A DNA stretch of 7,895 nt, taken from the NCBI GenBank assembly GCA_003022005.1, contig PXRQ01000023.1:1-7895 (forward strand). Direction: 5' to 3'. This DNA is from Halobacteriales archaeon QS_5_70_15 (GTDB taxonomy: Archaea > Halobacteriota > Halobacteria > Halobacteriales > Haloarculaceae). Positions 1,615 to 5,131 of the stretch are shown piece after piece (position 1 is the stretch's first letter; each line of letters opens with the position of its first letter). Under the pieces are notes generated by a model that was not told the origin of the DNA, ran no database searches, and saw only the letters and a list, made by a program, of their open reading frames with translations. A program made the translations under genes and the position numbers.

Positions 1615-2607
1615 TCACAGGTAGCCCCGCTGCCGGAAGTGCAGCAGCATGACGGCGGCCACCCCGAGGATCCCGAGCATCACGGCCGGGTAGCCGAACG
1701 TCCGGCCGAGTTCGGGCATGTTGTACGGCGAATAGGCGAAGTTCATCCCGTAGATCCCGACGACGAACGTCAACGGGAGGAAGATCGTCGCGATGACGGT
1801 CAGCACCTTCATGACCTCGTTGGTCGACTGGGTGGCGGTGTTGAGGTAGATGGCCCGCGCGCCGCGGGCGAGGTCGGGGCGCCGGCCACGCGATCTTCCG
1901 GAACGCGAGGAGGTCCCGCCGGACCGAGTTGATCCCATCCAGGATCGCGATGTCGGTCGACTCGGTGACCGGCTCCTCGATGACCTCGATCGTGTCCCGA
2001 TGGCGTCGAGTATCTCGACGTACTCGTCGACGAGGACGTCGACGATACGGTAGGCAGTGAAATCCGGACCCCGCTCGAGCAGTCGCTCGTCGCCGCGCTC
2101 GACGGCCCGCCAGACCCGCGCGACGGCGTCGGCCCGGGAACCCGAGAGCGTGACCACCCAGTCCTAGCCGAAGACGACCCCGACCGACTCGGTCCGGACC
2201 TCCTCGTCGAAGGTCCCCTCGCCCTTTCGCGGTTCGGCGTCCTCGACCAGGGTGAAGGTGTAGTCGGCGAACTCCTCGGCCTTCGGGCGGACGTCGCTCC
2301 TGACGTCCTCGACGATGAGGGGGTGGATGCCGAAGGCCTCGGCGACCCGTTCGAACCCCCCGTCGGTCGCCTCCGTGACCCGCACCCAGGTCGTCCCGGT
2401 GGCGGCCTTCGCGGCCCGGAGCGCCTCCGGCCCGTCGTCGTCCGCGGTTGCACGGCCGATCCCGACGGCGAACAGCGCGATACCGACCGTCGCGCCCGTC
2501 ACGGCGAACGAGCGTCCCGGGTAAACCGCGACGGTGCCGATGACGTAGCCGAGCGCCCCGAGGACAACCAGGGCGACGCCCGCAACCAGCGGTGCGTTCG
2601 GTCGCAT
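1615..2607 (-). pseudogene. corA: corA-type Mg2+/Co2+ transporter, degraded
   Basis: CorA is a homopentameric magnesium channel with a cytoplasmic N-terminal domain and two C-terminal membrane helices. Family signatures are strong: AFGIHPLIVEDV and VRPKAEEFADYTF in the N-terminal domain, STNEVMKVLTVIATIFLPLTFVVGIYGMNF with the pore motif GMN, and a second helix ending in a basic tail (RQRGYL). The gene is broken at several points. A TAG at 2166-2164 falls in frame between VGVVFG and DWVVTLSGS, which are continuous in the family. After LDAIG, near 1996/1997, one base is missing and the expected IEVIEEPVTESTDIAILDGI continues in another frame. Near 1873-1885 the conserved AFRKIAWP jumps straight to DLARGARAIYLNT, omitting about 40 residues including the usual YFRDVYDH segment, and this restores the original frame. 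The N-terminus is joined to an unrelated membrane segment. The surrounding codons still encode conserved residues, so decay looks recent. A full-length pentamer channel cannot be made. Confidence 0.85.
2164..2607 (-). CDS. Surviving open frame: small two-helix membrane protein fused to CorA N-terminal fragment
   Basis: This is the translatable 147-codon piece upstream of the amber codon. Residues 1-55 contain two hydrophobic segments (about 6-26 and 36-53) linked by VYPGRSFAVTGATVG, resembling small two-helix haloarchaeal membrane proteins of unknown function. From about residue 60 (GPEALRAAKAATGTTWVRV) it is the cytoplasmic domain of CorA without its normal first residues. I picked the ATG at 2607 because a TGAAAAG box (2631-2637) lies 24-30 bases upstream; longer in-frame starts at 2625 and 2694 add proline/glycine-rich sequence with no family look. 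If made, the product would be a membrane-anchored CorA fragment without the pore. It may instead be a relic of a deletion joining two adjacent genes. I do not assign it a function. Confidence 0.4.
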   Translation of the reverse strand: MRPNAPLVAGVALVVLGALGYVIGTVAVYPGRSFAVTGATVGIALFAVGIGRATADDDGPEALRAAKAATGTTWVRVTEATDGGFERVAEAFGIHPLIVEDVRSDVRPKAEEFADYTFTLVEDAEPRKGEGTFDEEVRTESVGVVFG

Positions 2608-2630
2608 ACCACCCGTGGGTCCCATGGGAG

Positions 2631-2692: not shown

Positions 2693-2851
2693 ACACGGCC
2701 GTGCGTAGCGATCTACCGGTGATCGCCCGGTCGGACCCGGCGATCATCGCGGACTACGCACGACCGTCCCATACGGATTATCGTAGTCTTTTACCGCCGA
2801 TCACGGAGTCCGTTCGAGTGATCGGCGGTAGATCGTTACAACGATCCGTAT
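2693..2851. repeat. Cluster of four degenerate ~34-bp motifs forming two adjacent palindromes
   Basis: Four copies of one motif fill this gap: minus strand 2726-2693, plus 2740-2769, minus 2804-2771, and plus 2818-2851. Read in its own direction the motif runs GATC, then CGGTA, then TAC, then CCGT near the end. The second pair shares 26 of 34 positions, including a perfect 13-bp inverted repeat (TACCGCCGATCAC at 2792-2804 with its complement at 2818-2830) and perfect 8-bp outer arms (ATACGGAT at 2771-2778, ATCCGTAT at 2844-2851). The first pair has 8-bp arms GTGCGTAG (2701-2708) and CTACGCAC (2754-2761) around a tight dyad centred on 2733 (TGATCGCC 2720-2727, GGCGATCA 2739-2746). A 13-of-14 match also links 2705-2718 with 2826-2839 in inverted order. 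The last copy ends on the lipoprotein stop codon. Whether it acts as DNA (operator, mobile end) or RNA cannot be told from one sequence. Confidence 0.7.
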
Positions 2852-3501
2852 CAGTCCCCGGTCTCGTGCTCGATGCCCCGCAACATCGTCTCGACCCGGG
2901 CCCGCTCGCCGTCGAGGCGTGCGGGGTAGACGCCGATGGCCACCACGAAATCATCGCCGTGGCGGAATTTCGCCACGTGGAGCGCGAGGTCGACCTCCGT
3001 GTCGGCGACGGTCGTGGTCGCGTCGAACCGCGAGACCGTCCGTCCCTCGCCGAGTATCTCGACCGTGCCGTTGCCCGCGAACGACACGTCCTCGATGGAG
3101 TCGTACTGGGACTGGAGGCGGGTCGCCAGTTCGCGGTCGGAGAGCTCGCCGACGGGGTTGAACGTTCGACCGGCGATCTCGACCGCGGGCGTGGACATGA
3201 CGGTGACCCGGGCGAAGGGCTCGCTGCCGTGCGGACCCAGTTCGACCGCCCGCTGGTAGCTCGCGACGTGGTTCGTCACCGAGACGTTCCGCGTCTCGCC
3301 GGCGACGGTGAACGACCGGTTCCGTTCCACCGGCTCGACCCGGACCGCCTCGTAGCCGGCCTCCGACCGGGCGTCGTCGGCCACCGCGACGGGTTCGGAC
3401 TCGAACGCGAGCGACTCTTCCCCCGTCAGGAGGCCCACACACCCGGCGCTCAGGACGAGGAGGGCGAACGCCAGACCCGCGAGGACTCGTCGGTGATGCA
3501 C
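2851..3501 (-). CDS. Haloarchaeal lipoprotein, DUF6517-like
   Basis: A 216-residue secreted protein anchored by a lipid-modified cysteine. From the chosen start the N-terminus is MHHRRVLAGLAFALLVLSAGC: a basic twin-arginine n-region, a hydrophobic core and a lipobox ending at Cys21. Haloarchaeal lipoproteins with RR are often Tat exported, which is inference here. The mature part is acidic and beta-rich, with VEPVERNRSFTVAGETRNVSVTNHVASYQR, TFNPVGELSDRELATRLQSQYD and a final VAIGVYPARLDGERARVETMLRGIEH. This fits my recollection of the haloarchaeal DUF6517 family, whose role is unknown. I prefer the GTG at 3501 over the ATG at 3528: the latter lies within a good TATA-like box (GGCTTATG) that is 25-32 bases before 3501, and the extra nine residues add nothing to the signal peptide. 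It follows cysS in the same direction with its own promoter. Its stop codon touches the palindrome cluster at 2693-2851. Confidence 0.75.
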   Translation of the reverse strand: MHHRRVLAGLAFALLVLSAGCVGLLTGEESLAFESEPVAVADDARSEAGYEAVRVEPVERNRSFTVAGETRNVSVTNHVASYQRAVELGPHGSEPFARVTVMSTPAVEIAGRTFNPVGELSDRELATRLQSQYDSIEDVSFAGNGTVEILGEGRTVSRFDATTTVADTEVDLALHVAKFRHGDDFVVAIGVYPARLDGERARVETMLRGIEHETGD

Positions 3502-3525
3502 GGTCCGGGCTACAGGCGACCCCCG

Positions 3526-3533
3526 CATAAGCC
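3526..3533 (-). promoter_or_regulatory. Probable TATA-like box of the lipoprotein gene
   Basis: On the minus strand this reads GGCTTATG, 25-32 bases before the GTG at 3501 and within the cysS-lipoprotein gap of 79 bases. It supports a leaderless transcript and decides the GTG start. Confidence 0.5.
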
Positions 3534-3580: not shown

Positions 3581-5068
3581 TCAGAGCCGGTAGGTCGGTC
3601 CCTCGTCGGTGTCCTGCACCTCGATACCGAGCGCCTCCAGGTCGTCGCGGATCCGGTCGCCGAGGTCGTAGTTGCCGGCCTCCCGCTCGCGCTCGCGCAC
3701 GCTCAGTAGGAGCTCCACGAGGTCACCGACCAGTACCTCCCCCTCGGCGTCGCCCGCGAAGGCGAACCCGAGGACGTCCCCGCCGAGTTCCTCGAACGCC
3801 TCGACCGCGCGGCGGAGCCCGCGGTAGTCGTACGCCCCCCGGCCGTCCACGTGGCGGTTGACCGCCCCCGCGAGGTCGAGCAGGGCCGCCAGCGCCTCGC
3901 GGGTGTTGAAGTCGTCGTTCATCGCCGCCTCGAAGCGGTCGCGGACGTCCCCGACCGCCCCGCGGAGGTCGGCGTCCTCGACCTTCGCGTACGCCTCCGT
4001 GGAGTCGAGTGCCCCGACGGCGGCGTCGTACCCCCGCTCTATGCGCTCCCAGCGCTCCTCGGCCTCCTCGATGGCCCCCTCGCCGTAGGACTGCCGGGCG
4101 TTGTACCGCGCCGTGAGGAAGAACGACCGGAGGACGTTCGGCCCGAGTTCGCGCAGGGCGTCCTTCGCGTAGAAGTAGTTCCCGAGCGAGGTAGACATCT
4201 TCTCCCCGCCGGTCTCGAGCAACGCGGTGTGGAGCCAGTACCGGGCGAACGTCCGGCCGGTCGCCGCCTCGCTCTGTGCGATCTCGTTCTCGTGGTGGGG
4301 GAAGACGAGGTCCCGACCCCCGGCGTGGACGTCGATGGTCGGCCCGAGGTGGGTCATGCTCATCGCCGAGCACTCGACGTGCCACCCCGGCCGGCCCTCC
4401 CCCCACGGCGAGTCCCACGTCTCGCCGGTCGGGGACTCCCCGGGATCGAGTTCGGGGGCCTCATCGCGTCGGTGCTCCTCGACTGCGTCGGGGGAGACGC
4501 CGCCGGCCTTCCAGAGCGCGAAGTCCTGCGGGTGGCGCTTCTCGCTCCGCTCGTCGGGGTCGCCCTGTGCCTCGACCTCCTCGAGCCGCTGGTTCGACAG
4601 CTCGCCGTACCCCCCAAACGTCGTCACGTCGAAGTAGACCGAGCCGTTCGACTCGTAGGCGTACCCCTCCTCGATCAGCGTCTCCGCGAGCTCGATGATC
4701 TCCGGGACGTGCTCGGAAACCCGGGGGTAGACCTCCGCGCGGAGCAGGTTCAGCCCGCGCATGTCCTCGACGACGCTCGCGGTGAAGTGGCGGGCGACCT
4801 CGGGTTCGGAGTCGCCGAGGTCCCCCTCGCCGACGCGGGCGACGATCTTCTCGTTCACGTCGGTGAAGTTCTCCACGTGACGGACCCCGTAGCCGAGGTG
4901 CTCGAGCCACCGGTGGATCACGTCGACGTGGACCCACGACCGGGCGTGACCGAGGTGCGCGTGGTCCGAGACCGTCAGGCCACAGTAGTAGAGGAGGACG
5001 TCGTCCGGATCCTGTGGCTCGAACGCCTCGCGCTCGCCCGTTCGCGTGTTCGTCACGCGGAGCGGCAT
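3581..5068 (-). CDS. cysS: Cysteinyl-tRNA synthetase
   Basis: Charges tRNA-Cys with cysteine using ATP, in the cytoplasm. The 495-residue protein is a complete class I synthetase. The HIGH-type motif is HLGH at 38-41, preceded by YYCGLTVSDHA. The KMSKS-type motif is KMSTS at 290-294. The catalytic zinc ligands expected for the family are all present: Cys29, Cys233 (in GWHVECSAM), His258 and Glu262 (in FPHHENEIAQ), with the same Cys-to-His spacing of 25 as in E. coli. Relative to E. coli CysRS there is an insertion of about 23 residues before Cys233 (acidic, SPDAVEEHRRDEAPELDPGES). The C-terminal part has a DALR-type helical domain (AAMNDDFNTREALAALLDLA) and a short end, EVQDTDEGPTYRL. The ATG at 5068 is chosen over one 20 codons upstream because MPLRVTNTRTGERE is the family's N-terminus and a TATA-like box lies at the right distance. 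Divergent from the membrane-protein gene at 5191. Confidence 0.97.
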   Translation of the reverse strand: MPLRVTNTRTGEREAFEPQDPDDVLLYYCGLTVSDHAHLGHARSWVHVDVIHRWLEHLGYGVRHVENFTDVNEKIVARVGEGDLGDSEPEVARHFTASVVEDMRGLNLLRAEVYPRVSEHVPEIIELAETLIEEGYAYESNGSVYFDVTTFGGYGELSNQRLEEVEAQGDPDERSEKRHPQDFALWKAGGVSPDAVEEHRRDEAPELDPGESPTGETWDSPWGEGRPGWHVECSAMSMTHLGPTIDVHAGGRDLVFPHHENEIAQSEAATGRTFARYWLHTALLETGGEKMSTSLGNYFYAKDALRELGPNVLRSFFLTARYNARQSYGEGAIEEAEERWERIERGYDAAVGALDSTEAYAKVEDADLRGAVGDVRDRFEAAMNDDFNTREALAALLDLAGAVNRHVDGRGAYDYRGLRRAVEAFEELGGDVLGFAFAGDAEGEVLVGDLVELLLSVREREREAGNYDLGDRIRDDLEALGIEVQDTDEGPTYRL

Positions 5069-5090
5069 GGACGGGGCTACTCGTGGGGGG

Positions 5091-5100
5091 CGTTTGAACT
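5091..5100 (-). promoter_or_regulatory. Probable TATA-like box of cysS
   Basis: The minus strand reads AGTTCAAACG, 23-32 bases before the cysS ATG at 5068. It is followed by GC-rich sequence without a Shine-Dalgarno match, which fits a leaderless transcript. Confidence 0.55.
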
Positions 5101-5131
5101 CGTCGGAAGCCGGTCGGACGGTCTCCACCGG

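Follow-up and report, generated by a model that had tools for sequence, protein, structure and literature searches.

What are the two adjacent palindromes that stand directly behind the stop codon of a lipoprotein gene in Halobacteriales archaeon QS_5_70_15, and how might they have come to lie there side by side? They occupy positions 2691-2853 of the window, by which we mean the whole 7,895-nucleotide stretch of DNA that was analysed. A first-pass annotation had described them as four copies of one motif, and had offered a multi-site operator, a structured RNA, a REP-like or MITE-like element, or part of a replication or partition site as readings. An inverted-repeat search confirms the two palindromes. 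Each palindrome is one copy of an asymmetric element of ~80 bp, the copies lie in opposite orientation, and their arms account for the four motif copies. We consider it very likely that these are copies of a non-autonomous haloarchaeal mobile element which inserted successively at the same stop codon. The locus is laid out as follows.

2691-2693, no strand: left outer target duplication belonging to the copy at 2694-2768, TCA on plus and TGA on minus, read from the sequence and in line with the TSA positions of covariance model R2.
2694-2768, minus strand: palindromic element of 75 bp, a diverged and probably older copy, CACGG...CCGTC on the plus strand (R2 42.7 bits, E 4e-9 on minus; 26.5 bits on plus; match region 2691-2768).
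2769-2771, no strand: target duplication common to both copies, CCA, probably TCA with one change, read from the sequence and from the sharing of TSA in pairs elsewhere.
2772-2850, plus strand: palindromic element of 79 bp, better kept and probably the younger copy, TACGG...CCGTA (R2 76.1 bits, E 1.8e-17 on plus; 59.3 bits on minus; match region 2769-2853).
2851-2853, minus strand: right target duplication TCA; read on this strand it is TGA, where the DUF6517 gene stops (end of ORF 2851-3528).
2851-3528, minus strand: DUF6517 lipoprotein gene with the insertions at its stop codon (PF20127, E 2e-63).
1615-2628, minus strand: CorA-like gene, downstream, split over frames (two separate PF01544 matches, of which the N-terminal one falls short of the family cut-off).
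3581-5128, minus strand: cysteinyl-tRNA synthetase gene, upstream and in the same direction (PF01406, E 7e-103), its order kept in relatives.

The CorA-like gene lies in an N-terminal piece at 2164-2628 and a C-terminal piece within 1615-2157, and is either a pseudogene or broken by sequencing errors.

An inverted repeat of 34 nt joins 2771-2804 with 2818-2851 at 76% complementarity, in agreement with the 26 of 34 matching positions counted earlier for the inner pair. Further inverted repeats join 2695-2708 with 2754-2767 and 2717-2732 with 2734-2749, and the two palindromes match each other across 2705-2745 and 2799-2839. When folded as RNA, the region 2690-2856 reaches -93 kcal/mol on the minus strand (z -7.6) and -85.5 kcal/mol on the plus strand (z -6.9), and no equally strong fold arose among 200 dinucleotide shuffles of either strand. 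As that annotation had reported, no T-run follows the stretch on either strand; an Rfam search of the window returned no match at gathering cut-offs.

Copies gathered from other genomes define the element as a palindrome over its full length, with an asymmetric internal loop and the ends TACGG...CCGTA. The 128 copies counted range from 73 to 90 bp and contain no transposase gene. For an alignment (A1), 40 copies were chosen for diversity, two were dropped and L001 was added, giving 39 rows, in which the TACGG and CCGTA ends are nearly invariant and 86.7% of the cells of the outer helix are paired; in the inner stem the letters vary, while pairing is mostly kept (86% of cells). These statistics refer to a hand-written structure of 27 pairs, the RNAalifold structure having given 13. 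Both sides had changed in 141 cells, as opposed to 63.7 (sd 6.4) in shuffles, so that the count of covarying pairs proposed in the first-pass annotation places compensatory change well above chance, and when the alignment is slid only 26-44% of cells pair. Two other measures are less striking: further pair types numbered 43, against 38.2 in shuffles (reached by 14 of 500), and a double change was seen in 16 pairs, against 12.2 (reached by 1 of 500). It counts against a MITE that young MITEs are near-identical, whereas these copies have diverged and carry compensatory changes; perhaps the palindrome itself is maintained or repaired.

Covariance model R2 was built from the 39 copies, both window copies among them, and their own match to it is therefore partly by construction; the blastn match of the second palindrome to plasmids is independent of the model. 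R2 scores higher on the plus strand for 2772-2850 and on the minus strand for 2694-2768, which places the two copies in opposite orientation.

The element is widespread among haloarchaea. In the blastn search, the second palindrome was found on haloarchaeal plasmids, mostly in unannotated stretches, and an exact pattern from the right arm occurs in at least 120 stretches of genome contigs; the titles of the 120 matches listed are all haloarchaeal, one being given only as Euryarchaeota. The covariance-model search of haloarchaeal genomes that had been suggested at the outset found R2 matches, at E 0.001 or better, in 132 of 292 genomes, an even draw from the class of Natrialba taiwanensis in which at most 15 matches were scored per genome and the stricter filters lose weak matches. 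One genome, G061, holds 202 exact matches to a 17-letter end pattern, against none for the reversed control pattern. Because the copies analysed were fetched through the conserved right arm, strongly diverged ones are under-sampled among them. Viral contigs held no exact match to two element patterns, and among phage records 24 gave a match, the 20 matches listed all having E of 0.5 or above. Another dispersed repeat, of ~115 bp, was seen in at least eight haloarchaeal loci (L127, L092, L128, L119, L018, L071, L067 and L080).

The element is mobile, as is evident from a 3-bp TSA (TCA or TGA) target duplication and from empty sites, the latter being the stronger proof but few. From 133 regex hits, the 128 copies with a recognisable left end, window copies included, were counted: their flanks are TCA on both sides in 63, TGA on both sides in 44, one of each in 2 and other in 19, so that 107 of the 128 have identical TSA pairs. 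For most loci the fetching pattern itself demanded the right-hand T of the duplication, the middle base and the A being free; T and A are nearly invariant, and hence only the middle base is informative, which agrees in 118 of 128 copies against an expected fraction of 0.49. Outside the 3 bp, agreement is no greater than base composition gives. Flanks from G061 and G128 repeat this result (TCA/TCA 35, TGA/TGA 17, one of each 0, other 2; 52 of 54 agree).

For the empty sites, the joined flanks of 13 insertions were searched against six Natrialba genomes, which gave 11 junction-crossing matches, eight of which were read. Three are clean (L076, L095 and L083): the relative has a single TSA and the element is absent. 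One relative at L112 also has a single TSA, with an adjacent base changed and other differences in the left flank; in a second relative at L112, and at L104 and L012, the element is absent and there are other changes near the junction, and the match at L057 is too diverged for use. Of the 12 constructs made from N. taiwanensis or N. aegyptia, 10 match the other of these two species in two pieces separated by roughly one element length; by our reading of the coordinates many insertions are thus common to both species, which argues against fast turnover. The element is thus short and without a transposase gene, has terminal inverted repeats and a target duplication of fixed length, and is found at occupied and empty sites, as MITEs are; we read it as a non-autonomous hairpin MITE, although no parent element was found among the sequences searched. 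Of the readings first offered for this stretch, the REP-like or MITE-like element is the one supported, in view of the dispersed copies, the 3-bp duplication and the empty sites, whereas the operator, the RNA of the locus and the replication or partition site are not supported.

The rival account that survives best is that of a REP/BIME-type element, whose palindromes would be moved single-stranded by a Y1 (RAYT) transposase and whose pairs would be functional units. The element is palindromic, has a high copy number and frequently forms pairs, and its internal GTA(A/G), which adjoins the inner loop, resembles the GTAG tag of REPs. Nevertheless we regard this account as improbable: a 3-bp target duplication together with empty sites is not expected under the Y1 transposition of IS200/IS605 elements and REPs, the ~80-bp element is twice the usual REP length, and at the foot of its hairpin stands not GTAG but TACGG...CCGTA. 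The accessible parts of two sources describe bacterial REPs and BIMEs as high-copy palindromes, often paired and often near stop codons, which differ from the present element in being 20-40 bp long and in their GTAG or CGTC tag (PMC3733652, PMC12306157). In one of these, as far as its text is available, GTAG REPs are said often to supply the TAG stop codon of adjacent ORFs, which favours the likeness, and the word 'duplication' is absent from the main text (PMC3733652).

The target of the element is C-TGA-(G/A): in G061 and G128, C stands before TGA in 50 of 54 insertions and G or A after it in 42, and the same 54 show a weaker preference for G(A/T)C to the left and for (A/T)C farther to the right. 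Insertions are depleted inside genes, where 13 of 107 lie as against 2594 of 3597 CTGA sites, and the non-coding ones fall at the TGA stop codon of a predicted gene in 44 of 94 cases, compared with 203 of 1003 sites (p 7e-9). In a second insertion set, 8 of 52 lie inside genes (804 of 1162 sites) and 13 of 44 at stop codons (56 of 358 sites, p 0.015), and in G061 alone, a genome with a recent burst, the excess is weak (9 of 33 against 43 of 294 sites, p 0.04). If the background is narrowed to CTGA sites with G or A next to them, stop-codon shares of 0.179 in the first set and 0.197 in the second are expected, 0.295 being observed in the latter. Gene positions, and with them the stop-codon excess, rest on a crude gene caller. 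Of 113 insertions, 68 have an open frame of 100 codons or more that ends exactly at the TGA; the other two frames give 32 and 18 of 115, and TGA triplets at large 609 of 3952. In G061 and G128 the same frame test gave 17 of 54, against 8 and 8. Among eight plasmid loci, seven of them annotated, an annotated gene ends exactly at the left TGA in two (L006 and L007). Strict targeting of stop codons as the sole account was rejected, 50 of the 107 insertions being intergenic and away from stops and 13 inside genes.

Taken together, the site counts and the frame test show an element that prefers CTGA, survives mostly outside genes and is about two-fold enriched at stop codons. The excess could stem from targeting or from selection, and its weaker expression in the recent-burst genome makes us lean towards selection. 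It is tempting to speculate that the insertion machinery is itself tuned to TGA stop codons, such that the C-TGA core and the 3-bp duplication restore the stop, many genes receive a hairpin directly behind their coding sequence without being broken, and the ends of the element, as they decay, form the target anew, which lets copies accumulate at the same stops; we put this forward tentatively, and think it rather less probable than its converse.

How two copies came to share one duplication can be considered from other pairs. A survey gave 41 regex hits, some with a non-element on one side, of which by our reading at least 14, the pair in the window included, are clear pairs with recognisable ends on both units. 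The junction CCGTC-TSA-TACGG or a close variant occurs in 27 of the 41 hits, and a script counted three equal TSAs in 9 of the 41; at L201 in G061 the layout is minus-then-plus, as in the window, whose own junction is CCGTC-CCA-TACGG, with CCA instead of TCA, which counts against the reading. We infer that the copy at 2694-2768 arrived first and that the copy at 2772-2850 then landed at its end. The terminal A of the earlier copy would have changed to C, this end together with TCA would have become a fresh GTC-TCA target, and the second copy would have landed on it. A CCGTC end followed by TCA is the left half of the target, and such pile-up might therefore be explained without any special function of pairs. 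Before the shared TSA, the 14 clear pairs have CCGTC in 8, CCGTA in 5 and CCGTT in 1, which lends the fresh-target idea modest support.

The DUF6517 locus was compared among the best 30 loci from matches in 340 of 391 genomes, at most 54% identical and homologues by match only, and none of the 30 has the element at the DUF6517 stop codon; L271 carries one elsewhere in the locus. The first-pass annotation had counted absence from close relatives, together with a lack of further genomic copies, against its reading: the former holds for this stop codon in the 30 relatives, and the latter fails, very many copies being found elsewhere. The order cysS-DUF6517-CorA is kept in six of the 30 (L267, L281, L284, L286, L290 and L296), with cysS cut by the locus end in some. 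This order of cysS, DUF6517 lipoprotein and CorA genes across diverged genomes of the class is an observation in its own right, which hints that the lipoprotein and the transporter may be connected.

These comparisons also bear on the idea of a host RNA element or bidirectional terminator that selection has placed after stop codons. Strong folding, compensatory pairs and an excess right at stop codons are what one might look for in such an element, yet it is present or absent between related species with a target duplication, the empty sites speak against a purely vertical origin, it stands in both orientations relative to genes, and 63 of 107 insertions lie away from predicted stop codons. 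Absence from the DUF6517 stop in 30 relatives, as well as the lack of a T-run and of an Rfam match at gathering cut-offs, adds to this, and we consider the idea very unlikely, although an element may have been put to later use as a 3' end. Nor is a structured RNA specific to this locus supported, given its absence at the DUF6517 stop in the 30 loci, six with gene order kept. A multi-site operator, at which a dimeric regulator would control CorA or the lipoprotein, is suggested by the inverted order of the motifs; it has next to no standing, and a replication or partition site finds no support either, as the copies adjoin unrelated genes in other genomes and are missing from this stop codon in relatives, the six with gene order kept included.

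If the stretch is a pair of mobile elements, a transposase should have moved them. Most likely, an enzyme with C-TNA-G specificity from the IS5-related PHIS superfamily would act in trans through the terminal repeats, movement in trans being an inferred step since no matching enzyme was found. DDE_Tnp_1 gave 101 matches in three genomes; 50 loci were compared, 40 of them gave boundaries (some partial), and none of these 40 begins TACGG. PF13359 and PF13586 had no match in four genomes. A search of 196 loci for an autonomous partner with element ends 250-3500 bp apart returned a sole match, in which a shortened element at L068 2310-2367 is paired with another right end, and in G061 and G128 54 of 55 left ends have a right end at element length. 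This shortened element appears to be a 58-bp version with TCA on both sides (L068 2307-2370); if it is real, the element can move without the middle of its hairpin. At L239 and L245 of G061, a 1068-bp insertion sequence with a 334-aa transposase apparently lies inside one element copy and at the edge of another.

An element that lands on a TGA stop codon would duplicate the TGA, so that the gene product would be unchanged and the gene would gain a strong hairpin right after its stop. A hairpin in this position may influence translation or where the mRNA ends; in the accessible part of PMC12306157, lowered translation is reported for E. coli REPs less than 16 nt from a stop codon.

A mobile element of this size in haloarchaea is not unprecedented, as Haloquadratum walsbyi has SMR-A and SMR-B, elements of 80-110 bp whose mobilisation the available portion of PMC3119063 calls 'enigmatic'. 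The likeness extends to the lack of a gene, prominent terminal inverted repeats, many copies, unexplained mobilisation and a haloarchaeal host. In that same portion, however, SMRs are said to be without target duplication, their copies are commonly more than 95% alike, and SMR-A targets the palindromes of PATEs and IS605 elements (PMC3119063). The present element has a 3-bp TSA duplication, diverged copies and a CTGA target that includes stop codons, and given the duplication we do not file it as an SMR, the nearest described kind; it is set apart by the descriptions of SMRs rather than by their sequences. ISH2 and MITEHsal2 likewise lack a transposase gene and have a target duplication, and ISH2 is moved in trans; according to the accessible parts of the sources, ISH2 is ~520 bp long, makes a 10-bp duplication and resembles ISH8 in its related ends, and MITEHsal2 is ~412 bp with a duplication of 6-8 bp (PMC3119063, PMC10264941), whereas our element is 80 bp, nearly all hairpin, with a 3-bp duplication and no parent found. 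The target C-TNA-G and a probable 3-bp duplication are shared with the NuwaII group of PHIS (PIF/Harbinger, IS5-related) in what is available of PMC4482050; these are, however, eukaryotic transposons, and a homologous transposase was not found for our element. Our literature search, from which subscription papers were mostly absent, found no description of this element, and one may exist, for example in ISfinder or in genome papers.

If this reading is true, close to half of the sampled genomes of the class would carry a mobile hairpin for which we found no name, with a good share of the insertions at gene ends, and strong hairpins directly behind haloarchaeal stop codons would have a concrete reason. 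The element would offer a simple model of harmless insertion into a compact genome, in which the 3-bp duplication is itself the stop codon, and its defined ends could be used for tracing the missing transposase. Annotators would, moreover, be cautioned against taking such hairpins for regulatory RNAs or operators.
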